A stretch of 10,143 nucleotides of DNA from Alphaproteobacteria bacterium (GTDB taxonomy: Bacteria; Pseudomonadota; Alphaproteobacteria; UBA828). Position 1 is the first letter of the stretch; every line of letters starts with the position of its first letter. The translations under genes and the position numbers were made by a program. Shown here one piece after another: positions 1 to 10,143 of this stretch. The stretch covers positions 1 to 10,143 of the forward strand of contig JAJDVB010000048.1 in the NCBI GenBank assembly GCA_022826345.1. Direction: 5' to 3'. The notes beneath the pieces are model-generated. The model saw nothing but the letters and a program-made list of their open reading frames with translations. It was not told where the DNA came from and made no database searches.

Positions 1-1063
1 GCTAAACTTTGCGGCATTCAGTCAGCGCTTCGAGGCCAGTTGCGGTTGGCCCTCGATCACCAGACCGCAAAACTGTGGGGACGGACGCCAACCCGTCCCC
101 TCTGGTTTCGGTTGGCCCTCGATCACCAGACCGCTAAACTACGTCACCAGAGCGTGGCATGACGCCACTGGTTGCGGTTGGCCCTCGATCACCAGACCGC
201 TAAACTCTGGTCACTGAAGCGATGCCGTGGGCTCCAGTTGCGGTTGGCCCTCGATCACCAGACCGCTAAACTACACGCGTCTCCATGCGGGCGCTTTCCG
301 GCGTTGCGGTTGGCCCTCGATCACCAGACCGCTAAACTGCGACGGTGGCAGCCGTCGGTATTCACGAGGTTGCGGTTGGCCCTCGATCACCAGACCGCTA
401 AACTGACGCCCTGACCGAGTGACGCGTCGTCCGTGTTGCGGTTGGCCCTCGATCACCAGACCGCTAAACTGTGGTCGAACGTCGGGACCGGCACGACCTA
501 GTTGCGGTTGGCCCTCGATCACCAGACCGCTAAACTCGTGCCTGGCGGCCGGTACGGACGGACTGAGTTGCGGTTGGCCCTCGATCACCAGACCGCTAAA
601 CTGCATGGGGCAAGCCATCCGCGAGCCTCACGGTTGCGGTTGGCCCTCGATCACCAGACCGCTAAACTCTCGTGCCGGATGAGGTCGATCGCGAGTTCGT
701 TGCGGTTGGCCCTCGATCACCAGACCGCTAAACTTCACGGCTGCATCAGATAGCCGGGCATCGGGTTGCGGTTGGCCCTCGATCACCAGACCGCTAAACT
801 GACGAGCGGCGGGACGAGGGCGAAGGCCGTGTTGCGGTTGGCCCTCGATCACCAGACCGCTAAACTGATTCGGGTCATGTCCTCACCCCAAGGTCAGTTG
901 CGGTTGGCCCTCGATCACCAGACCGCTAAACTGGACGGCGGTGTTCCACGTGGCACGGCCTGTTGCGGTTGGCCCTCGATCACCAGACCGCTAAACTGAT
1001 TGGCGCCGGACGCCACCGGATCAGGTGGTTGCGGTTGGCCCTCGATCACCAGACCGCTAAACT
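1..1063 (+). CRISPR. Type II-C CRISPR array, 16 full repeats plus one partial
   Basis: A 36-nt direct repeat starts at 39, 105, 171, 237, 303, 369, 435, 501, 567, 633, 699, 765, 831, 897, 962 and 1028. The last 8 nt of another repeat lie at 1-8, so the array runs off the left edge. All 16 spacers are 30 nt except 933-961, which is 29 nt. Repeats are identical apart from 39-74 (T31 to A) and 105-140 (G4 to T). The last repeat, next to cas2, is canonical. Three signs indicate transcription on the + strand: the anti-repeat and tracrRNA at 5974-6057 pair with the repeat in this sense, the terminator at 1076-1101 faces this way, and the repeat starts GTTGCGG as related II-C repeats do. The array is therefore convergent with the cas operon. 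No leader is visible; it would lie left of the window if it sits upstream of transcription. I could not search the spacers against phage or plasmid sequences. Confidence 0.99.
171..206 (+). promoter_or_regulatory. Promoter embedded in each CRISPR repeat (representative repeat)
   Basis: Within the repeat, TTGGCC at repeat positions 8-13 (here 178-183) and TAAACT at positions 31-36 (here 201-206) are exactly 17 nt apart. They match 4 of 6 bases of both the -35 and the -10 sigma-70 consensus. The same arrangement recurs in every repeat. Repeat-borne promoters with the -10 box at the repeat's 3' end are established for the II-C system of Neisseria meningitidis. Transcription would start several bases into each spacer, giving crRNA guides shorter than 30 nt without upstream processing. 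In repeat 39-74 the -10 box is AAAACT, so that copy may be weaker. The promoter function is inferred from sequence only. Confidence 0.55.
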
Positions 1064-1135: not shown

Positions 1136-1516
1136 TCAGAACAAGACCAGTTGGTCGGGGTTTCTGGGGCTCGGTTCGCGCTTTCTTCCCCGGAAGGTGC
1201 GGATGTTCTCATACTGCTTGTCGGTAATCTGGATCATGTGAACCTTGCCCTCCTTCGGCATGGCCAGCTCGATCCGGCGGGCTAGCGCGTCGGCCTGCTC
1301 CTTGCCCGCACAGTGCCGAAGGTACACGGAATACTGGCTCATCTCGAACCCTTCATCCAGCAGGTCATGACGAAACCGCGTAGCGGCGCTACGATGCGAC
1401 TTGGTGCCCACCGGCAGGTCAAAGAGCACGATTAGCCACACGATTCGGTAGCCGCTGAGAGCGGATCCGCTGTCCGCTCGCGGCTTCTTCTTCCGGGCAG
1501 CCACGTCATCCTCCAA
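1136..1516 (-). CDS. cas2: CRISPR-associated endonuclease Cas2
   Basis: This is the Cas2 subunit of the Cas1-Cas2 spacer integrase, which holds the prespacer duplex between two Cas1 dimers. The 126-aa product has the ferredoxin-like first strand WLIVLFDLPV, with the conserved Asp at about residue 33. The F-x-M-S-Q-Y-S-V-Y segment and a C-terminus ending near NPDQLVLF are also typical of type II Cas2. It is somewhat longer than usual (about 100-110 aa) because of a basic N-terminal stretch (ARKKKPRAD). A start closer to the first strand is possible, but no better in-frame ATG is obvious. The start overlaps the end of cas1 by 11 nt, which suggests translational coupling. Its stop is 72 bp from the last repeat, and it is convergent with the array. 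Confidence 0.95.
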   Translation of the reverse strand: MEDDVAARKKKPRADSGSALSGYRIVWLIVLFDLPVGTKSHRSAATRFRHDLLDEGFEMSQYSVYLRHCAGKEQADALARRIELAMPKEGKVHMIQITDKQYENIRTFRGRKREPSPRNPDQLVLF

Positions 1517-2405
1517 GCGGCAGCTTTGGCAGCGGAAGGTCGAGCGTATCGTCCGCGCCCGCGTAGGCGCGCGCCAAAGACTGTGCCAGACGTTCCGCGC
1601 GGACCATTACTGGACTCATGCCTGCGGCAGTCGGCAGGTCCAGGATCATCACTCGGGCCAGCACTTCCTTGGCGTCGCGGTCGACCTCCTCGACGCCTTC
1701 GCGGACAAGACGCCAAACCTCCAGATCCACCACGGGACGGAACGGCTCCATCAGATCGTCCACCAGGACCATGGCGTTGCCCCGGTTGGCGTGCATTAGG
1801 CCCAGGCTGGGATGGAGGCCCGCCGCCATTACGGCGCGCGCCACGCCGGCCCGCAGAACGGCGTAACCGTAGTTCAATAGTCCATTCGCTCCACCGGCGT
1901 CCCGGTCGCGGCGGAAGTCCGTACCCATCAGCTGTGGCCAGTACCGACGGGCGGCCTCGGCTTCAACGTTGTCGGGGTCGCCCGACCGCACCTTGCGGGA
2001 GAGAAGTTGGAAGCCGCCGTGTTGCGCACCCGCAGCAGCCAGCGTCGCGCCTTGGGCCAGGATTTTCGCGCGCACGATTTGCGCCCATAGGCGTTTCTTG
2101 AGCGGTGCTCTGGCGTTCGCCTGATCCGCCATGCGCCCGGCCTGGGCATGGTGGCCTTCCACGGGCCAGACAATGGCCGCAGGTCTGTGGTTCGGGCCGC
2201 ACAAGATCGTTGCGATGCCTCGTTCCGCCAGTGTCACCAGCGCATGATTGCTGTAAGTCAGGCCGTGAGCGTTGGCGACCACCGCCGCGATGCCTTCGAG
2301 CCCGATGCGACCGACCTTCTCACCATCCTCGCTCACCACCAGGAAACCGCGATGGAGTGAAAGGTAGCGGCCGTCAGTCTCCAATTCCACCACGCGTCCC
2401 GCCAT
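1506..2405 (-). CDS. cas1: CRISPR-associated integrase Cas1 (type II-C)
   Basis: Cas1 is the metal-dependent integrase that inserts new spacers at the repeat. The 299-aa length is normal for type II Cas1. An N-terminal beta domain (about residues 1-85) precedes a helical catalytic domain. The metal ligands can be placed: Glu148 in VEAEAARRYW, His205 in LMHANRGN and Glu220 in DDLMEPFRP, the same spacing as the known type II Cas1 triad. The ATG at 2405 follows a GGAGG ribosome-binding site 8 nt upstream and lies 18 nt after the cas9 stop. The 3' end overlaps cas2 by 11 nt. All active-site residues look intact, so adaptation should be possible. No csn2 or cas4 is present in the window, which fits subtype II-C. 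Confidence 0.97.
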   Translation of the reverse strand: MAGRVVELETDGRYLSLHRGFLVVSEDGEKVGRIGLEGIAAVVANAHGLTYSNHALVTLAERGIATILCGPNHRPAAIVWPVEGHHAQAGRMADQANARAPLKKRLWAQIVRAKILAQGATLAAAGAQHGGFQLLSRKVRSGDPDNVEAEAARRYWPQLMGTDFRRDRDAGGANGLLNYGYAVLRAGVARAVMAAGLHPSLGLMHANRGNAMVLVDDLMEPFRPVVDLEVWRLVREGVEEVDRDAKEVLARVMILDLPTAAGMSPVMVRAERLAQSLARAYAGADDTLDLPLPKLPLGG

Positions 2406-2423: not shown

Positions 2424-5400
2424 TTACAACGAGCGAGCAGCTTCGTCCGAAGGAATGCGCCAGATACGCCCCAATTCATCAACCCGGACGCGCTCCGCGC
2501 CCCGTTCCTTGAGCGTATTGTAAGAAGCCATAAGCCAACGGAACGGATCTATGTCGTTGGATTCGGCGTGGCGTTTGTCTAGGTTTCCGGCCTCATTGTG
2601 CGCGGCGAGCTTGAAGCGGCTCGCGGCAACGTCGAGGCGGTGTACGACCATGACCCGCCTCTTGCCCTCATGATCCAGAGCGATCAAGTCGCCCTTCCTG
2701 ACCCGCATGACGAAGGTGACGTCTTCGCTGTCACGCCAGCGCGGCCGATGGCTGGATCGGTTGGCCTGGAATACGGTCGTCGCTTCGCCTCGCCACTTGC
2801 CGTCGGGCGTCTCGTAGATGTCGACGAAAGCGTTTTCTCCCGCGCTGTAGGCTTTTTCGTGCGGTCGCTCGCCGTGCCTGACGGTGACGAGGTATTCTGG
2901 TTTTTCTGGTTTCAGAATGCGGACTCGCCGGAGACCGTCCTTGACGTGGGGATGTCCTTGGTGCGCGGCGTTGAAACTCTCCAGAGCCTCTTTCAAACCC
3001 TGGCCTTGTACCGCCTCCGCACCGACATGGGTTTCGACCATCTCCCGCAGACGGATATCCCGGATACGTCCGATCTCGGGCTTGGTGAGCGCTGTCACGT
3101 CTTTGCGATAGACGAGGTTCGCACCTTCGCGGTCGGGGTCCTTGACGAGCCCGTAGGCAGTCGCTTCGTGCAGCTTGTCGCTGGCAGCATGATCGGGCCT
3201 GTGTGAGACCGTCATGGCTTCCAGCGCCGTACTCAGGTCATCGCGCACGCTTTTCCAAGGCTCTGGAACCGTGATGCGGTTTCGCTCGTCGTCGTAGGCG
3301 CTCGCCATGGACAGCAAGAGTGAGCGGTCGGTCAGGCCCGCCACCAGCGCGTCGATGGCGTGATGGCGATGATCCAGACGGTTCTTTCGATCGCCAATGT
3401 TGTGATCGTGCAGAAGATCGTTGAGGCCCCATTTGGCCCGGATCATTTCGGTGAGCCGGCCAGGGACGACCCAGACTTTGTGGGGACCGGTGAGCCCCTC
3501 AACGTAGTCCTTGGCCAGCCGCGCGAACCACCCCGTCTCGTTGAGTTGGCGAGCGAGAAATCCTCCCTGCTTTTCGAAGCGCTGCATGGCGTCGGGCGCG
3601 AAGCGCCAACTCTTGTTCCTGGGCAGGTTCGCGGACCGTCGGGCGATGTCCTCCCACACGTAGCGGCGACCGTTGATCTTCGGGCTGCGACTGAACGCGC
3701 CAAACGGCGTGTCCTGGCCCTTGGCCCGGTTAGCGAAGCGCATGGCGACCACCTTGTTGGCCGCGCTGTCGTCCCACGATTCCGAGAACGGGATCAGGTG
3801 CTCGATCTCGACCTCCTCGGAGAAGAGACGCTGGATTGAGATCTTCTCGCCGCTGAAGGGGCAACAACGGTCCAATGGGTCGTCCGGGTCAAGCTCCTCC
3901 CACAGCCGCAGCTTCAGCCGATTGCGGGCGTTAGGCATGCGGTCGTGTGCCCTGATGATCGTGTCGCGCTTCTCGTTCTTCTCCTGATTCGCTGCCTGTT
4001 CGCGCTCAAGCTCGCGCAACTTGCTCGGAGGCAGCTTGAAGCCGCGCGTCATTTCCACCACTGCTTCGGATGGCGGTCCATGCTCCCTGACGATTGCGTT
4101 GACCACGCGACGAAGCTGACCAAGCCCGATGTGGACCGTAGGGTTGGGAAGGCGGCCCCAGCGTTTGATGTTGCCGTTGCGTACGTCGCCGGACCCTGTC
4201 ACCGCGGCAGGTATCCATTCGCCGTAATATGGCAGGCGTTCCACCACCTCGCCGGTGCGCTTCTCGGAATGACTACCGAATTCCCGGGTCGCCGCCTCGT
4301 CGTAGCGAAGTCCCGCTTCCATGTGGGGCAAGAGCCGTTCGATGGCGCGGCGCCCAAGCCGTGCATGGCCCTCGGGTAAGGCGGCGTTGGAGACGCGCCG
4401 AGCCGTTATTTCGTCCACCCCGATCTCGCGCTCGAGCCAAGCGACCATCTCATCCTCGTTTTGGGTGGCCAGCAGTCGCTCCACGACGGCACCTTGCCGC
4501 CTCCGGTCCATGGCGCGCCACCGTTTGCCGAACAGGTCCTTGTGGCTCAGCTTCGCGGCGGTTTCGTCGCCCTTCAGCTCCTTGCGCTTGTCGCTTTCAA
4601 GATTGAAGCGCGCACCCTCGGGTAGCTTCAGCAGCGCGCGCATCCGATCAAAGGTCAGCTTGTTCTTCCCACTCAAGGCCAGCGCCAACTTCTGGCGCTG
4701 CTCATCGTCCGGCTTGATCGATTCCCGTCCGACCTCGCCGTACTCCAGGTTGTTGACCTCCTGAAGGATACGGAAGCGTTGGGCCAGAGGATGGGCGCGC
4801 GCCAGACGGAAGCCGTCCGCATCGTCCGAATCCTTGGCGGGATCGAGCGCGCACTTGCCGACCGGCTGTTCGCGCAAGGGCCGCTGATGGAAGACGGTCT
4901 CGCGCAGCGCGTCGCGCGCGTCGTCCGTCATCTCGGGATGATGGGGTGCCTGCGCCGCCCAGATCGCGTCGAACTCCTGCCCGAGCATCCTGCGCGAGGG
5001 GTAGAGATCGTAGGCCACCTTGGCCGCCGTGCCGCTGTTACGCACGCGCACGCCCTGGCGTTCACGGTGACGACGCCACAGGAACTCGCCCAGGGTGCGC
5101 GCGCCCTCGGCCTTCATGGCTTGCTCCAGCTTGCCCACGGCCTCCTTGATCGGCCCGGCCTCGTTGGCGCCGCCGTCAGTCTTGCGGTTCGACCTGAACC
5201 CGCGACGCTGGTTCAGGTGGAACAGGGCACGGCCCACATGATGCAAAGGAAGTCGGCAATCCAGCGCATCAGCCCGGAGCTCGTAGGGGTCGCGCTCTTC
5301 GAGTTGCTTTCTTGCCGCCTCGTCGGCCGGCATGAGTCCGAAGCAGACAAGTTGATCCATCAGCCGCTCGCGGCGTTTCAGATAGCGGTGCCGCCGCCGC

Positions 5401-5597
5401 CGCATGCCGCGGGCTATGCGGCGCGAGGCGGCATTGGACGCCTTCGATTGTGGATCGCGACCGTCAGGGAAGATGCGTACTCCGCCCGGCCCAAGCCCAC
5501 AGGGCTTGCTGCCATCGTCAAGCCAGATGACGAACCAGCCGATAGAGTTTGACCCCAGATCGAGACCCAGACGATAGGGACGATTGCGCTCGGTCAT
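2424..5597 (-). CDS. cas9: Cas9 RNA-guided DNA endonuclease, type II-C
   Basis: Cas9 is the effector that binds crRNA:tracrRNA and cuts matching DNA next to a PAM. The domains are in the usual order. RuvC-I is YRLGLDLGSNSIGW with Asp13. An Arg-rich bridge helix follows (ASRRIARGMRRRRHRYLKRR, about residues 58-77), then the REC lobe. RuvC-II is VVEMTRG with Glu515. The HNH domain is EIEHLIPFSESWDD with His600, followed by ANK. RuvC-III is HHAIDA with His746 and Asp749. A basic PAM-interacting C-terminus ends the protein. All nuclease residues are present. At 1,057 aa it matches compact II-C enzymes (about 980-1,080 aa). The ATG at 5597 is chosen because GGAGG lies 5 nt upstream and RuvC-I starts at residue 8; an upstream in-frame start at 5663 would lie inside the tRNA-like gene. 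The PAM cannot be read from this window. Confidence 0.98.
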   Translation of the reverse strand: MTERNRPYRLGLDLGSNSIGWFVIWLDDGSKPCGLGPGGVRIFPDGRDPQSKASNAASRRIARGMRRRRHRYLKRRERLMDQLVCFGLMPADEAARKQLEERDPYELRADALDCRLPLHHVGRALFHLNQRRGFRSNRKTDGGANEAGPIKEAVGKLEQAMKAEGARTLGEFLWRRHRERQGVRVRNSGTAAKVAYDLYPSRRMLGQEFDAIWAAQAPHHPEMTDDARDALRETVFHQRPLREQPVGKCALDPAKDSDDADGFRLARAHPLAQRFRILQEVNNLEYGEVGRESIKPDDEQRQKLALALSGKNKLTFDRMRALLKLPEGARFNLESDKRKELKGDETAAKLSHKDLFGKRWRAMDRRRQGAVVERLLATQNEDEMVAWLEREIGVDEITARRVSNAALPEGHARLGRRAIERLLPHMEAGLRYDEAATREFGSHSEKRTGEVVERLPYYGEWIPAAVTGSGDVRNGNIKRWGRLPNPTVHIGLGQLRRVVNAIVREHGPPSEAVVEMTRGFKLPPSKLRELEREQAANQEKNEKRDTIIRAHDRMPNARNRLKLRLWEELDPDDPLDRCCPFSGEKISIQRLFSEEVEIEHLIPFSESWDDSAANKVVAMRFANRAKGQDTPFGAFSRSPKINGRRYVWEDIARRSANLPRNKSWRFAPDAMQRFEKQGGFLARQLNETGWFARLAKDYVEGLTGPHKVWVVPGRLTEMIRAKWGLNDLLHDHNIGDRKNRLDHRHHAIDALVAGLTDRSLLLSMASAYDDERNRITVPEPWKSVRDDLSTALEAMTVSHRPDHAASDKLHEATAYGLVKDPDREGANLVYRKDVTALTKPEIGRIRDIRLREMVETHVGAEAVQGQGLKEALESFNAAHQGHPHVKDGLRRVRILKPEKPEYLVTVRHGERPHEKAYSAGENAFVDIYETPDGKWRGEATTVFQANRSSHRPRWRDSEDVTFVMRVRKGDLIALDHEGKRRVMVVHRLDVAASRFKLAAHNEAGNLDKRHAESNDIDPFRWLMASYNTLKERGAERVRVDELGRIWRIPSDEAARSL

Positions 5598-5602
5598 GGG
5601 AA

Positions 5603-5607
5603 CCTCC
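5603..5607 (-). promoter_or_regulatory. Ribosome-binding site of cas9
   Basis: GGAGG on the minus strand lies 5 nt before the ATG at 5597 and fixes the cas9 start. It sits between the CCA end of the tRNA-like gene (5619) and the start codon, so a tRNA-processed cas9 mRNA would keep it within a leader of about 21 nt. Confidence 0.8.
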
Positions 5608-5618
5608 AGTATGAAGCT

Positions 5619-5719
5619 TGGACGAGACGGAAGGACTCGAACCCTCAACCTCCTCAGGGTCACGGGTGGTCAGCCTTTGCCAGAACCCGAGGTGCTCTAT
5701 CCGATTGAGCTACGTCTCG
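5619..5719 (-). tRNA. tRNA-like gene with enlarged anticodon arm, just upstream of cas9
   Basis: Reading the minus strand from 5719, a 7-bp acceptor stem (CGAGACG with CGTCTCG), a TA linker, a D-arm (GCTC, loop AATCGGATA, GAGC), a T-arm (GAGGG, loop TTCGAGT, CCTTC), a discriminator T and an encoded CCA can all be placed. The part between D-arm and T-arm is not canonical. It is 46 nt rather than about 22, and contains a 7-bp stem (CCTCGGG with CCTGAGG, one G-T pair) closing a loop of about 27 nt, so no anticodon can be assigned with confidence. The 24-nt excess is too short for a group I intron. It may be a tRNA with an insertion, a pseudo-tRNA, or a tRNA mimic kept for RNA processing. It lies 21 nt before the cas9 start on the same strand, downstream of a strong promoter, so it is probably co-transcribed with cas9. 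Confidence 0.6.
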
Positions 5720-5742
5720 CATGTGGGATCGCGTGTTTCACG

Positions 5743-5771
5743 ATGATGCTGAGGGTGGCTACCCTTGTCAA
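5743..5771 (-). promoter_or_regulatory. Sigma-70 promoter for the tRNA-like gene and cas9 operon
   Basis: On the minus strand a perfect -35 box TTGACA (5771-5766) is followed after exactly 17 nt by CATCAT (5748-5743), which matches 4 of 6 bases of the -10 consensus. The predicted start near 5736 is about 17 nt before the tRNA-like gene. No better promoter is visible between the tRNA-like gene and the cas9 start codon, so this is the best candidate driver of cas9-cas1-cas2. The promoter call is inferred from sequence. Confidence 0.65.
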
Positions 5772-5777
5772 ATCTAT

Positions 5778-5796
5778 CCCCACACCATCCCTTAGC
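5778..5796 (-). promoter_or_regulatory. Candidate Cas9 autoregulation target next to the cas9 promoter
   Basis: On the minus strand this 19-nt stretch ends in GGTGTGGGG, identical to the last nine bases before the pseudo-repeat at 5882. The rest matches the guide at 5862-5881 except for one bulged C and one G/A difference. The 3' flank, where a PAM would be, reads ATAGATTTGAC and runs into the -35 box. Cas9 bound here would cover the promoter toward cas9. An alternative reading is that the two segments are simply arms of an inverted repeat used as an operator or hairpin. Confidence 0.5.
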
Positions 5797-5797
5797 A

Positions 5798-5826
5798 TTG
5801 CGGGCAGCAAGCTTTCTGACTACGAT
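5798..5826 (+). promoter_or_regulatory. Candidate promoter for a long tracrRNA
   Basis: TTGCGG (5798-5803) and TACGAT (5821-5826) are spaced by 17 nt on the + strand, with 3 of 6 and 4 of 6 consensus matches. The predicted start is near 5833, upstream of the guide-like segment and the pseudo-repeat. It is divergent from the cas9 promoter and begins 27 nt from that promoter's -35 box, with the candidate Cas9 target site between them. It is moderate in quality and needs 5'-end mapping. Confidence 0.4.
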
Positions 5827-5881
5827 CAACCCACAGTCACGTCAACCCCATGCCAGATTCTGCTAGGGGATCGGTGTGGGG

Positions 5882-5906
5882 GTTGCGGTTGGCCCCAAGA
5901 TCACTG
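5882..5906 (+). repeat. Degenerate CRISPR repeat upstream of the tracrRNA
   Basis: The first 14 nt (5882-5895) are identical to the 5' end of the array repeat. After a short divergent stretch (CAA in place of TC), the GATCAC of the repeat reappears at 5899-5904. The 3' half of the repeat, including the TAAACT box, is missing. The retained part is exactly what is needed to pair with the anti-repeat. It is in the same orientation as the array repeats and is isolated, with no second repeat nearby. Confidence 0.85.
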
Positions 5907-5973
5907 TTGCTGCAGTGTTCGGATTGCGGTACGTTCGGCACTGGTGCAAGCACAAGGAGAGTTTTCGCCAACG

Positions 5974-6057
5974 TAGCGGTCTGGTGATCGAGGGCTTTCC
6001 GTTAACAAGCTGAAATATGCACCACATGAGGCGGCCTGCGGGCCGCCTCTTCGCGTT
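5974..6057 (+). ncRNA. tracrRNA (anti-repeat and 3' hairpin)
   Basis: Positions 5974-5995 are the perfect reverse complement of repeat positions 11-32 (22 nt). They are followed by a UUU bulge and a lower stem (5999-6006, pairing with GUUGCGG). Downstream lie a short linker (6007-6027) and a perfect 9-bp hairpin at 6028-6049. In type II systems this RNA pairs with pre-crRNA, is cut by RNase III, and anchors Cas9. It is divergent from cas9 and on the same strand as the array, so its pairing sense sets the crRNA orientation as +. The 3' end is placed after the hairpin and the following TTCGCGTTT. The exact 5' end is unknown. Confidence 0.85.
6028..6053 (+). terminator. tracrRNA 3' hairpin and probable terminator
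   Basis: GAGGCGGCC (6028-6036) and GGCCGCCTC (6041-6049) form a perfect 9-bp stem with a TGCG loop. The following TTCGCGTTT is only a weak T-tract, so this is a strong hairpin with uncertain termination. Equivalent 3' hairpins in tracrRNAs are bound by Cas9. Confidence 0.6.
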
Positions 6058-6292
6058 TGCGATTAGGAAATCTGGCATAGTGTCGAAGGGAGATAGTCGC
6101 TGCGGGAGTCGAACCGCGCTGCAACCCAGCGACTGTACGCACGATTCTTCGTGGACACGCCTGCCGGTCCCACAATCTGCCCAACACCGCGAGCCGGAAT
6201 AGCGCGGACCCTGCCGGAGCGTCCGCACCTTGTCGCGATCGCAACCCGGAAGGGGCCTGAAACGGCTTGGCCTCAATTGATCGAATCCGCTT
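6058..6292. other. Intergenic region without a supportable gene
   Basis: No convincing coding sequence is seen on either strand. The small open frames here lack ribosome-binding sites and recognisable motifs. The only structure noted is the tRNA-like inverted repeat at 6095-6134. The region separates the tracrRNA from the 3' end of the toxin gene and may hold the junction between the CRISPR module and the mobile-element genes. Confidence 0.5.
6095..6134 (-). other. Inverted repeat resembling a tRNA acceptor and T-arm
   Basis: AGTCGCTG (6095-6102) and CAGCGACT (6127-6134) are perfect 8-nt complements. Between them, on the minus strand, lies CGGTTCGACTCCCG, which looks like a tRNA T-arm (GTTCGA loop). 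There is no D-arm, anticodon arm or CCA end, so this is not a functional tRNA. It could be a decayed tRNA fragment, such as an attachment-site remnant, or a chance hairpin. Confidence 0.35.
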
Positions 6293-6715
6293 TCATGTTT
6301 CCGACCACGGATCGAATATCTCCACGCCCGTGGTCCGGAAGTCCGCCACGTTCCCCGTGACCACCGTCATCCCGTGAACCATGGCCGTCGCCGCGATCAG
6401 CGCGTCCCGTTCGGCCCTTGGATCGGGAACATGGAGTTGTGCGCACTTGAGGGCCACAGTGGCATCGACGGGCAACGTGCGCTCCAGGAACTCGGGCAGC
6501 ACATGCCGATCCATCCAGGTGCGCAGGCGCTCCCCCTGCCCGACGTCCCGCCGCTCGACGCGAAGGATGCCGATCTCCAGCTCCATGAGCGTGAGCGCCG
6601 AGTTGTAGAAGCTCGCCGCGTCCCGGCCGGAGATCCACGCCGCAACACGGGCGTCCGCCCTGCCGTCCCCGAGCTTGCGCAACTCGGAGATCACGTTCGT
6701 ATCCAGCAGGAACAT
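6293..6715 (-). CDS. vapC: PIN-domain ribonuclease toxin, VapC family
   Basis: This is the toxin of a type II toxin-antitoxin pair; VapC proteins cleave RNA (tRNA or rRNA) when free of antitoxin. The 140-aa product has the full set of PIN acidic residues: Asp5 in MFLLDTNVISE, Glu45 in TLMELEIG, Asp104 in ERDALIAATA and Asp125 in NVADF. The length is normal for the family, and the sequence around the motifs resembles the FitB/VapC type. The ATG overlaps the antitoxin stop by one base (TGATG), and there is no clear ribosome-binding site of its own, so translation is probably coupled to the antitoxin. The RNA target cannot be inferred. It may stabilise the element carrying the transfer genes. 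Confidence 0.93.
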   Translation of the reverse strand: MFLLDTNVISELRKLGDGRADARVAAWISGRDAASFYNSALTLMELEIGILRVERRDVGQGERLRTWMDRHVLPEFLERTLPVDATVALKCAQLHVPDPRAERDALIAATAMVHGMTVVTGNVADFRTTGVEIFDPWSET

Positions 6716-6969
6716 CAGGAGAGATCGGGCGCAGCAGCCTCGATACGCGCACGCGGCGGATCGAAGTCGATATCGGCCAGCCCCGGCATCGACAATGCCT
6801 CCACGAGACTGCGGCCCTGGCCCGTCAGCCGCCGGTAATCCTCGATGCTGAGAAGGACGTGGGCGGGCTTGCCGCGGTCGGTGATGAACACCGGCCCCGA
6901 CTTCGCGGCCTTCTTTGCGCGCGCGACGTCCTGATTGAGTTCGCGGCTGGATACGGTGGTGACGGTCAT
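6715..6969 (-). CDS. Type II antitoxin, Phd/YefM-like, partner of VapC
   Basis: This is an antitoxin that neutralises the adjacent VapC and normally represses its own operon. The 84-aa product starts MTVTTVSSRELNQDVARAKK and continues with PVFITDRGKPAHVLLSIEDYRRL, the classic Phd/YefM DNA-binding fold (residues about 1-50). A variable acidic tail follows that would wrap the toxin. The ATG at 6969 is chosen over longer upstream starts because it opens the conserved domain, has a GGAG about 7 nt upstream, and follows the promoter and operator-like sequence. The stop overlaps the toxin start in TGATG. The order antitoxin-toxin is typical. Confidence 0.92.
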   Translation of the reverse strand: MTVTTVSSRELNQDVARAKKAAKSGPVFITDRGKPAHVLLSIEDYRRLTGQGRSLVEALSMPGLADIDFDPPRARIEAAAPDLS

Positions 6970-6980
6970 GCCGGGCTCCG

Positions 6981-7010
6981 ATGTGTATGTAGCGATGTAA
7001 CTACCATATC
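6981..7010 (-). promoter_or_regulatory. Probable operator and promoter of the toxin-antitoxin operon
   Basis: An AT-rich patch in otherwise GC-rich DNA contains an imperfect palindrome with GTAG (6989-6992) and CTAC (7001-7004) arms, extended by partly matching flanks. A TATGGT box (7008-7003, minus strand) could be the -10. This is where the antitoxin, alone or with toxin, would be expected to bind. A convincing -35 box was not found. Confidence 0.4.
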
Positions 7011-7202
7011 GCCGGACGGGCAAGGGCCGGAACCTGGTATCATTTGGGCGCCGACGATCAGCGTGACGGACCTTGCGGGTTGGCCTCGCGCTGAATTCGG
7101 GCGCTGCCGTCACGCATGAGACGGTGGCCTCGCCAGCACTGTTTCCCCTGAACATGCGAGCGCCCCGGGTCGGAGCCTGCCGGCCCCGAGCAGCGGCGGC
7201 GA
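7011..7202. other. Intergenic spacer between the antitoxin gene and the AlpA-like gene
   Basis: No gene is supported here. Near its right edge GCGGCGA (7196-7202) pairs with TCGCCGC (7210-7216), a 7-bp GC-rich hairpin that overlaps the end of the AlpA-like gene. It lacks a T-tract, so a terminator role is uncertain. Confidence 0.4.
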
Positions 7203-7479: not shown

Positions 7480-8217
7480 TCACGGCCGCACCGTCAGCGG
7501 ACATTCGACGACCGTGTCCGTCTCCATGGCCTGGTGCTCGCAGTCGACGATGGTGCGTCCGTAGGTGTTCCAGATGTGCTCACCCCAGCCTCGGGTGGGA
7601 TCGTGCAGGGGGACGACTTCGAACTGCACCTGGACCAGCAGGCCGAGAAGGACGCAGGCGGGGAGGCCCGCGGCCATCGCGAGACCCGCCCAGCGCCTGC
7701 GCCTGCGCCTCTCGTTCCCGGCCCAGCGCACGAATTCGGCCTTGAAGGCGCGGAGCGCGGCCGCGAGTTCCGCCGCCGCGCTCATCGCCGCGTCCCGGGG
7801 CTCCTGAGCCTCGTCCGGCGGTCGCTCGGGCCGCGCTCCTGTCGCGTCAGTGCCCCCGCCGTGCGGGTCGACCGGCTCAATCGCATCTTCCTGCGCAACA
7901 TGCGGCGGCTCCTGTCCATGTTCGTACTCCGCGATCTTCTCCGCGACATAGCGCGCGAAGAGCCAGCTTTCGCCGCTTGCCGACACAACGCCGCCGCGCT
8001 TCTCCGCCGGAGCGGGGTCCGCCCCGGCGTCGGATGCCGGCGGGGCCGGGCCGTCGCCGGCGGGCGCGCTGCCCGCGCCTGCCGACTCATCCCCCGCCGG
8101 CTTGCCGCCGCGGGATTCGCCCCGCGGCTCGTGCCGCTGCCCGTTGACGGGCCGCCTCTCCTCATGGTCGTGATCCAGGTCGATGCCATCCGGCATCGTG
8201 GGCCTCCTGGCAGTCAT
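7480..8217 (-). CDS. Hypothetical single-pass membrane protein with disordered N-terminus
   Basis: The function is not recognised. The product is about 245 aa. Residues 1-90 are rich in Pro, Ala, Gly and charged residues and are probably disordered. A SWLFARYVAEKIAEYEHGQE helix and a second low-complexity stretch follow. Next come an Ala-rich helix (AMSAAAELAAALRAFKAEF) and a basic NERRRRRRW cluster directly before a hydrophobic segment (AGLAMAAGLPACVLLGLLV). A short C-terminal domain has two Cys (DCEHQ and VECP). The basic cluster before the membrane span suggests the N-terminus is cytoplasmic. The ATG at 8217 overlaps the traG stop (ATGA) and has GGAGG 7 nt upstream; a second ATG at 8196 has AGGAGG 6 nt upstream. 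Coupling to the TraG gene suggests a transfer-related role, which is inference only. Confidence 0.75.
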   Translation of the reverse strand: MTARRPTMPDGIDLDHDHEERRPVNGQRHEPRGESRGGKPAGDESAGAGSAPAGDGPAPPASDAGADPAPAEKRGGVVSASGESWLFARYVAEKIAEYEHGQEPPHVAQEDAIEPVDPHGGGTDATGARPERPPDEAQEPRDAAMSAAAELAAALRAFKAEFVRWAGNERRRRRRWAGLAMAAGLPACVLLGLLVQVQFEVVPLHDPTRGWGEHIWNTYGRTIVDCEHQAMETDTVVECPLTVRP

Positions 8218-10143
8218 TCCGCACCTCCCATGATCGTCGTCGGCCGGCGTGTACCGCCGCCCGCAGCGGAGTTGGCCGCCGCCATCTCCTTGCGCAGAAC
8301 GTACGGGTTGGGATCGGCCAGGAAACGCGTGTCCGGCCGCTCCCAGTAGTGCGCGTGGTGGAGATGAAGCGCGTCGCGCTTGATGTCTTTCGCCGCCCCG
8401 ATCACGTACTGACGGTCCGGCGCCATCGTCATCAGCTCGTCGGGCGTCACCAGCCGCTCGCGCACGAGGCTGAAGGATTCTCCGGCCTGCCACTGCGTGT
8501 TGCCGGCAACCGCGCGGCTGTCCGAGACGCTGCCCGAGCGGCTCTCCGTCCGGCCCTCGAAGGTGGCGGTGCCGATGGCCTTGGACATCTCCTCCGCGCC
8601 CTCCGCGTCGGTGCGCGGAAAGCCGAGGATCTGGACGACCTCGGCAAGATCCAGCAGCGTCTTGCGGTGCTCCTTGCCCCAGGTCGAATCAAGCGCAGAG
8701 ATCGACTGGGCGAAGCACCAGAAGTGCACTCCCTTGCCGGCGGCCATGGTATAGCCGTCCATCACCGGCTTGAGGTATCCGAGCCTCGGCATCTCGTCGA
8801 TCACGATCAGCATGTCGCGCTCGAGCGGCCTGATGCCCGCCACGGCGTTGGGGATGGCAACCCAGAGTCGGAGCCAGCCCTTGACGTGCTCGACGGTCTC
8901 CTCCGGCACGACGACGAAGAGATCGATGTCGCCGTCTGCCAGCATCAGCGGGTTGAAGCCCCTCTGCTTGGAGGTGTGGGCGAGCAGCTCCGGGTAGTTG
9001 AGGAAGGAGAGCTGGTTGGCGATGGTGCTGAAGTTCGACCCGCCTTCCTCCTTGCCCACCTGCGCCTGGCGCTCGACGGCGATGTGGGTCAGACCGCCGG
9101 CGAAGCGCTCCGTTCTGCGGACCAGCTCAGCGAACTCCTCCCGCTCCCCCGGCCCCATGGAGAGCATGCGATAGACCGAGCCCAGGGTCTGGAACCCGGG
9201 CGGCTCGCGGAAGCGCACCCAGGCCATGTACCCGGCGACGATGGCGCGGGCGGACTCGTAGAAGTGCCGGCTGTTCTCGGGCGCGCCCGGACGCGGCGGG
9301 GTCAGCAGGGCGTCGAGCAGCACGTTGATGTCGCGCACCGCGAGGCCCTCGTCCTCGCGGATGAACGAGAGCGGGTTGTAGTTGGAGCCGATCACCTCCG
9401 GCACCAGGCACCCCCCGAAATCCTCCCTGTGCTTCCTCACCACCCCGAAGGGATCGATGAGCACGGTCCGCCGGCCCATCTCGCGGCGGCGGCGCGCGGC
9501 GATGCAGTACAGCTCGCCGCGCGGGTCGATGGTGACGGTGGAGCCGTCGAAGCCGCGTCCCTCGGGCGAGAGCAGGTTGAGGGCGATGAGGGCGCCCTTT
9601 CCGGCGCGGGGCGGGGCGACGGTGATGGCGGAGCCTTCGAGGGACCAGCCGACGAGCGGCGCATTCCGGCCGGCGCCCCACTGGCCCAGCAGGATGCCGT
9701 TCCGCTTCGCCAGCCGGCGCAGGAACCGGCGCCCGAGCAGGCTCGCATGTCCGTGCAGGTCGGAGTCGGCGCGGCGGCGGCGGTCGCTGCCACCCAGATG
9801 CCGGAAGGTGGCGACGGCTGCCTCGAACCAGAGAATGCAGAGCACCCCGGTGGCGGGCAGCGGCACGACCGCCATCGCCAGGGCGAGCCCGTCCAGCGCC
9901 CCGAGCCAGCCCGTGACGGCCCCGAGGGAGGGCGCATGCTGGAGCGGCCGCACCACCCCGGTCCAGAGCGAGGCCCCGGCCACCGCCAGCGCGCCGCCGT
10001 AGAGCCCGAAGCGGAGCCAGAGTAAGGAGTCCTTCCGGTCGCCGGCGAAGTAGGCGAGGAACGACGCTCCGACGGCCGTGCCGAGGCCGGCGGCGGTGAC
10101 GTCTTCCGGCCGGTGTCCGTTGACCAGCCAGGCCGCCCAAGCT
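8214..10143 (-). CDS. VirD4/TraG-family type IV coupling ATPase (5' end outside window)
   Basis: Coupling proteins bring the DNA-relaxase complex to the type IV secretion channel during conjugation. The reading frame is open through the right edge, so the N-terminus is missing and about 640 codons are visible. Hydrophobic segments lie near the visible N-terminus (around 10070, 9990 and 9850-9910). The Walker A motif APPRAGKGALIALNLL (about 9570-9620) has the GKG form common in VirD4/TraG. The Walker B is MLIVIDEMPRLGYL (about 8780-8815), followed by a Gln-containing FAQSISALDS segment also typical of the family. A conserved FNPLSFIR-like stretch reads YNPLSFIR here. The stop at 8214 overlaps the next gene by 4 nt. 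No relaxase or channel genes are in view, so whether the element is self-transmissible is unknown. Confidence 0.93.
   Translation of the reverse strand, partial: AWAAWLVNGHRPEDVTAAGLGTAVGASFLAYFAGDRKDSLLWLRFGLYGGALAVAGASLWTGVVRPLQHAPSLGAVTGWLGALDGLALAMAVVPLPATGVLCILWFEAAVATFRHLGGSDRRRRADSDLHGHASLLGRRFLRRLAKRNGILLGQWGAGRNAPLVGWSLEGSAITVAPPRAGKGALIALNLLSPEGRGFDGSTVTIDPRGELYCIAARRRREMGRRTVLIDPFGVVRKHREDFGGCLVPEVIGSNYNPLSFIREDEGLAVRDINVLLDALLTPPRPGAPENSRHFYESARAIVAGYMAWVRFREPPGFQTLGSVYRMLSMGPGEREEFAELVRRTERFAGGLTHIAVERQAQVGKEEGGSNFSTIANQLSFLNYPELLAHTSKQRGFNPLMLADGDIDLFVVVPEETVEHVKGWLRLWVAIPNAVAGIRPLERDMLIVIDEMPRLGYLKPVMDGYTMAAGKGVHFWCFAQSISALDSTWGKEHRKTLLDLAEVVQILGFPRTDAEGAEEMSKAIGTATFEGRTESRSGSVSDSRAVAGNTQWQAGESFSLVRERLVTPDELMTMAPDRQYVIGAAKDIKRDALHLHHAHYWERPDTRFLADPNPYVLRKEMAAANSAAGGGTRRPTTIMGGAE

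Follow-up and report, generated by a model that had tools for sequence, protein, structure and literature searches.

Positions 5861-6057 of the window (the whole stretch of 10,143 nucleotides that was analysed) very probably encode a long tracrRNA, a natural single guide with which the type II-C Cas9 of the locus would repress its own cas9 promoter. A sequence-only reading had proposed that the tracr-L logic of S. pyogenes operates in this II-C locus, and the proposal was supported by guide/target matches private to each locus and by PAM-like flanks, both of which recur among related loci. With less assurance, but still rather likely, natural single-guide autoregulation is not specific to type II-A and has been gained, rewritten and lost repeatedly in II-C loci (mostly Alphaproteobacteria), each lineage aiming a guide of its own at the cas9 promoter that it carries; the same degree of belief extends to a bulge after the 9-nt seed as a second safety device in the clade of the window, where a nearly full-length guide would hold the promoter uncut.

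The window carries a type II-C locus (Table 1) in which the array is followed by three minus-strand genes, cas2, cas1 and cas9, and these by the tracrRNA on the plus strand. Among the eight proteins of the 10-kb window, cas9, cas1 and cas2 were found without csn2 or cas4, as is the rule for type II-C; csn2, the II-A gene, was not found among the eight proteins scanned, and cas9-cas1-cas2 abut the array directly. The RuvC and HNH motifs of Cas9 were retained in an alignment to a solved Cas9. VapC-like, Phd-like and TraG-like neighbours (Phd match above the NCBIfam cut-off, VapC and TraG matches below) suggest a mobile element. The tRNA-like element was called by ARAGORN as a 101-nt tRNA-Ala(ggc) and reached 48.2 bits with the Rfam tRNA model; its anticodon arm is over-long and its fold was no better than that of shuffled sequences (z 0.10). 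By its position, it would share a transcript with cas9. ARAGORN called no tRNA in 17 related loci, among them L001, which carries a diverged counterpart of the element. A 23-nt inverted repeat (78%; 5837-5859 and 6069-6091) flanks the region of the long tracrRNA on both sides. Comparison of positions 5560-6070 with phages gave no match, and comparison with plasmids gave a sole match of 89 nt in Nitrobacter hamburgensis.

Table 1. Features of the window discussed in the text.
Feature	Position	Strand	Remarks
CRISPR array	39..1063	+	16 repeats of 36 bp, 15 spacers
cas2	1136..1516	-	NCBIfam cut-off passed
cas1	1506..2405	-	NCBIfam cut-off passed
cas9, type II	2424..5599	-	NCBIfam cut-off passed
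tRNA-like element	5619..5719	-	between predicted cas9 promoter and cas9
Predicted cas9 promoter	5743..5771	-	TTGACA (5771-5766), 17 bp, CATCAT (5748-5743)
Flank ATAGATTT, presumed PAM (N4AY)	5770..5777	-	overlaps -35 box
Target site	5778..5797	-	seed part 5778-5786
Natural guide, 21 nt	5861..5881	+	ends exactly at pseudo-repeat
Pseudo-repeat (degenerate CRISPR repeat)	5882..5906	+	crRNA-like half of predicted single guide
Linker	5907..5973	+	hairpins in predicted RNA; without tracrRNA-facing TTGAC box
tracrRNA anti-repeat	5974..6006	+	same strand as pseudo-repeat, 3' of it
tracrRNA tail	6007..6057	+	GC-rich hairpin ~6027-6048
VapC-like and Phd-like genes, TraG-like coupling protein	6293-7017 and 8214-9983	-	beside locus

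The coordinates given earlier for a pseudo-repeat upstream of the anti-repeat were verified, as was the capacity of the two to pair in cis, so that in the window, as in tracr-L, a crRNA-like segment precedes the anti-repeat on its own strand. Pseudo-repeat and array repeat are identical over their first 14 positions (14 of 14), after which the pseudo-repeat degenerates. Of its first 26 nucleotides, 21 were paired with the anti-repeat in cis in the minimum-energy fold (shuffled pseudo-repeats: mean 1.9, with 0 of 60 reaching 21). Duplex energies with the anti-repeat, calculated for two strands, were -36.6 kcal/mol for the pseudo-repeat and -59.1 kcal/mol for the true array repeat. The folding energy was less unusual than the pairing (z -1.73 for 5862-6057, the stretch whose folding had been suggested; z -2.23 for 5882-6057), and in one predicted fold six guide bases (5874-5879) were tied to the tracrRNA tail, which counts against the model. 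A scan of the tail (6007-6057) for a T-run terminator found none.

Guide and target agree over nine contiguous seed bases up to the pseudo-repeat boundary, followed by a bulged guide C and by pairing at 10 of the next 11 positions; 19 of the 20 target bases are paired in all. This is the match of 18 of 19 with a bulged C that had been described before, confirmed and one base longer. Against the intergenic DNA the guide scored 16.0, a value that 5,000 dinucleotide shuffles never attained (best 14.5), and guide and target are the only two places in the window that contain the seed GGTGTGGGG. Promoters were sought with a simple consensus of the E. coli type. TTGACA-17-CATCAT was the only promoter-like site on either strand of 5560-6320 (shuffle mean 0.2); it faces cas9, and the target site adjoins its TTGACA, as the sequence-only reading had held. 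The window accordingly has what marks tracr-L, a short match that ends at the repeat boundary and lies at the (predicted) promoter of its own cas genes. Since the flank overlaps the -35 box, bound Cas9 would cover this box. The same E. coli-type scan of the window revealed no candidate promoter for the long RNA, a point against the model.

Related II-C loci were collected from a genome scan, viral contigs, plasmids (5 of 47 records) and further genomes. Of 278 confirmed matches in the genome scan the best 80 were used, and the genome searches took samples of their groups; the counts given below are therefore not population frequencies. Cultured relatives among the loci include Methylopila turkensis (L034) and Stakelama marina (L069). 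The 158 sequences (window included) contained 27 duplicates; of the 131 distinct sequences, two with less than 80 nt upstream (L006, L130) and seven with a weak anti-repeat were dropped, which left 122 loci with a usable anti-repeat. A pseudo-repeat, defined by agreement at 11 or more of 14 bases upstream of the anti-repeat, was present in 27 of these 122 loci and on the opposite strand in 0 of 122; shuffled repeat prefixes gave a mean of 0.98 loci and a maximum of 5. The distance from anti-repeat to cas9 exceeded 200 nt in 27 of 27 loci with a pseudo-repeat (206-522), as against 19 of 95 without. Another 27 loci agreed with the repeat at 9-10 of 14 positions; 18 of them were usable, and three had a seed of at least 9 nt. 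From this second set, L045, L062 and L129 were added to the pairing, promoter, PAM, TTGAC-box, tree and seed-length analyses. Among the resulting 30 loci, cis pairing lay above all 60 nulls in 20, and between 1 and 60 nulls equalled it in L001, L002, L003, L012, L034, L045, L060, L064, L131 and L152; in relatives this comparison is partly circular because pseudo-repeats were chosen for likeness to the repeat. On a Cas9 tree of 124 loci (five short Cas9s left out; 27 labelled loci, namely the 24 that remain of the main set once L014, L064 and L131 are removed, and the three added ones), the module changed 21 times by parsimony, with a mean of 24.5 and a minimum of 18 for shuffled labels. The scatter of the module on the tree, where it comes and goes in a nearly random manner, counts against the model. 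Further relatives in the order of G001 (16 genomes), the family of G003 (96) and the order of G002 (43) yielded no new loci.

Seeds were searched in the non-coding DNA between pseudo-repeat and cas9, with a slack of one base at the boundary for data and nulls alike. A match of at least 9 nt between a locus's own guide and its own target was found in 19 of the 27 pseudo-repeat loci, as against 1 of 702 swapped pairs and 14 of 2,700 shuffles; for at least 11 nt, the numbers were 13 of 27, 0 of 702 and 0 of 2,700. As the guides differ between loci, the matching is recurrent and not a single inherited sequence; the earlier suggestion to look for joint change of guide and target among related loci was thus followed, with a result in favour of the model. 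In four of the 27 (L014, L038, L064, L131), any seed was shorter than 7 nt. In the Nitrobacter-like L014 and L064, the pseudo-repeat lies ~230 nt upstream of the anti-repeat and there is no intergenic target match. Seeds of 8 nt or more were compared in 22 loci, made up of 19 from the main 27 and of L045, L062 and L129 (L020, whose seed is one base off, and loci with seeds below 8 are omitted); they were 8-13 nt long, 11 nt in nine of the loci. Past the first mismatch, the match was at chance level (38 of 147 positions in these loci minus the window and L001). Relative to the guide, 13 targets were inverted and nine direct.

The best cas9-facing promoter-like pair overlapped the target footprint in 20 of 26 loci, with 9.3 expected for random placement in the region, as scored with a loose consensus and the top-scoring pair of each locus alone; the overlap was absent in L002, L012, L040, L045, L050 and L062. 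A TTGAC box facing the tracrRNA was found between pseudo-repeat and anti-repeat in 25 of the 30 loci (shuffles 2.1) and was missing in the window, L001, L020, L038 and L062. Such a box predicts two RNAs, of which only the longer would include the pseudo-repeat. Some relatives also have a tracrRNA-facing TTGAC box close to the target.

The nearest locus with the module is L001, from an alphaproteobacterial MAG, with a Cas9 that is 80% identical over its 793 residues. Its seed is GGTATGGGG in place of the window's, and the change is matched by a change in its target. The bulge follows the ninth base in both loci (1 nt in the window, 2 nt in L001), and nine of the next ten positions are paired in both. 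Between the two loci, distal position d5 carries an identical change in guide and target, and d1 a matched change only when the guides are aligned with their bulges opposite each other; in the window d6 is left unpaired, in L001 d9. The flanks of the two targets are not collinear, and homology of the targets is therefore likely, not certain. L001 was scored at 9 nt in the seed count because non-coding DNA alone was searched; a 12-nt match to its own guide lies within the first 30 nt of its cas9 coding region and may be chance or a second site. L007 (80%), the closest full-length relative among the loci examined, has a short tracrRNA only and lacks the module, which counts against the model; its Cas9 (P0009) belongs to a set of close Cas9 proteins (P0002-P0017) with 76-84% identity.

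PAM evidence was drawn from the flanks of 24 loci with seeds of at least 8 nt, one of which (L059) looks like chance. Among the 20 loci less related to the window, 13 had GG at positions 2-3 of the flank, with a background of 6.9% (p 4e-11), and seven lacked it. The flanks of the window's clade (ATAGATTT, AGATACTT, TAGAACCA and AAAAACTA) have A at position 5 in 4 of 4, followed by T or C, and A at position 5 is also found in the flank of L002 (seed 7), GGAAACTT. From these five flanks, we infer N4AY as the putative PAM of the window's clade. Protospacers were sought for the array of the window in phages and plasmids and for that of L012 in phages, with either no match or matches at E about 3; one further match, in N. 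hamburgensis, was to the array repeats of that organism. Exact searches of IMG/VR with the last 24 nt of four of the window's 15 spacers gave none. For EHCas9, a II-C enzyme, the available text of PMC10281378 gives a measured PAM of NGG, with NGGDT preferred; the GG flanks of the distant loci resemble it, a likeness of PAM and II-C subtype alone.

By the proposed mechanism, the long RNA 5861-6057 would be transcribed, fold as a natural single-guide RNA and be loaded by Cas9. The complex would bind the seed-matched site 5778-5797 beside the predicted -35 box, with the N4AY flank as PAM; the bulge would prevent cutting, and the binding would repress the cas9 promoter. At low Cas9 the promoter would be free and at high Cas9 shut, a feedback loop that would need no other regulator.

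Guide and site might instead be a mere inverted repeat (a hairpin in DNA or RNA whose arms templated repair would equalise or which would serve as an attenuator) in which Cas9 has no part. Their arms are indeed inverted and co-changing in the window and L001, as template switching could yield; the nine direct targets beside the 13 inverted ones tell against this explanation, as does the arrangement, seen in many loci, in which the match ends at the pseudo-repeat boundary with a PAM-like flank next to it, and it is regarded as scarcely credible. Very improbable, too, is a fossil origin, by which the pseudo-repeat would be the remnant of an array unit that gave rise to the tracrRNA and would have no function in the window. 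Degenerate repeats decay, four of the 27 loci lack a target seed of 7 nt or more and L007 lacks the module, all of which a fossil would explain; a fossil is hard to square with a private match of at least 9 nt kept in 19 of the 27, with a window match that none of the 5,000 shuffles attained, or with L001, where the match is retained through changes on both sides.

The single guide could also be real and act mainly on something other than cas9, namely the tRNA-like element or the promoter of its own tracrRNA. The position of that element between promoter and cas9, and the tracrRNA-facing TTGAC box near the target in some relatives, leave some room for this; yet the sole promoter-like site found in 5560-6320 of the window faces cas9, and the 17 related loci, L001 included, gave no ARAGORN tRNA, which makes such an output quite unlikely. 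Repression of the cas9 promoter by the single guide is the reading preferred here.

S. pyogenes tracr-L (II-A; Workman et al. 2021, Cell) is described, in the part of a 2021 review that was available (PMC8616872), as binding without cleavage through an 11-nt match; the same part confines the long tracrRNA to II-A and has it absent from other subtypes. The term tracr-L also occurs in PMC11417352 (II-A) and PMC12216829 (Group B Streptococcus). As far as the excerpts of PMC8616872 and PMC11417352 allow a comparison, the present loci share with tracr-L a long tracrRNA as single guide (predicted here), a short match beside a PAM (presumed here) at the promoter of their own cas genes, of 11 nt in tracr-L and of 8-13 nt in 22 of the II-C loci, and long and short tracrRNA forms (predicted here). 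They differ, by the same excerpts, in that locus and Cas9 are II-C and the PAMs are others, in that the target lies beside or in the cas9 promoter, whereas the review places that of tracr-L downstream of the promoter, and in the bulge plus about ten extra pairs of the window and L001. The scaRNAs of Francisella novicida (II-B) and Neisseria meningitidis (II-C) are likewise CRISPR-linked small RNAs that employ Cas9 outside immunity; according to the sections available of PMC13431127, they regulate other genes, unlike the present locus, and the scaRNA of N. meningitidis acts post-transcriptionally, with binding independent of tracrRNA and PAM. Words beginning with autoreg were absent from the available text of two metagenomic type II papers (PMC10281378, PMC10278012).

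No description of tracr-L-type autoregulation in II-C was recognised in the literature searched, mostly at title level, and novelty is claimed within those limits. Mini-arrays of types I and V-A, reportedly treated by Shmakov et al. in 2023 and by others, are said to be Cas-regulating RNAs in which a degenerate repeat is joined to a spacer that partly matches the own promoter; they reportedly differ from the present case in their effectors and in being separate small RNAs.

If the model is true, the self-control of Cas9 by a built-in single guide would span subtypes, with different Cas9s and PAMs, and would be a solution that evolves again and again in systems passing from host to host. From self-targets one could then read which PAMs uncharacterised II-C Cas9s use, a GG type in the case of one large group, and the bulged guide would exemplify in nature how a probably active nuclease may hold its site without cutting it.
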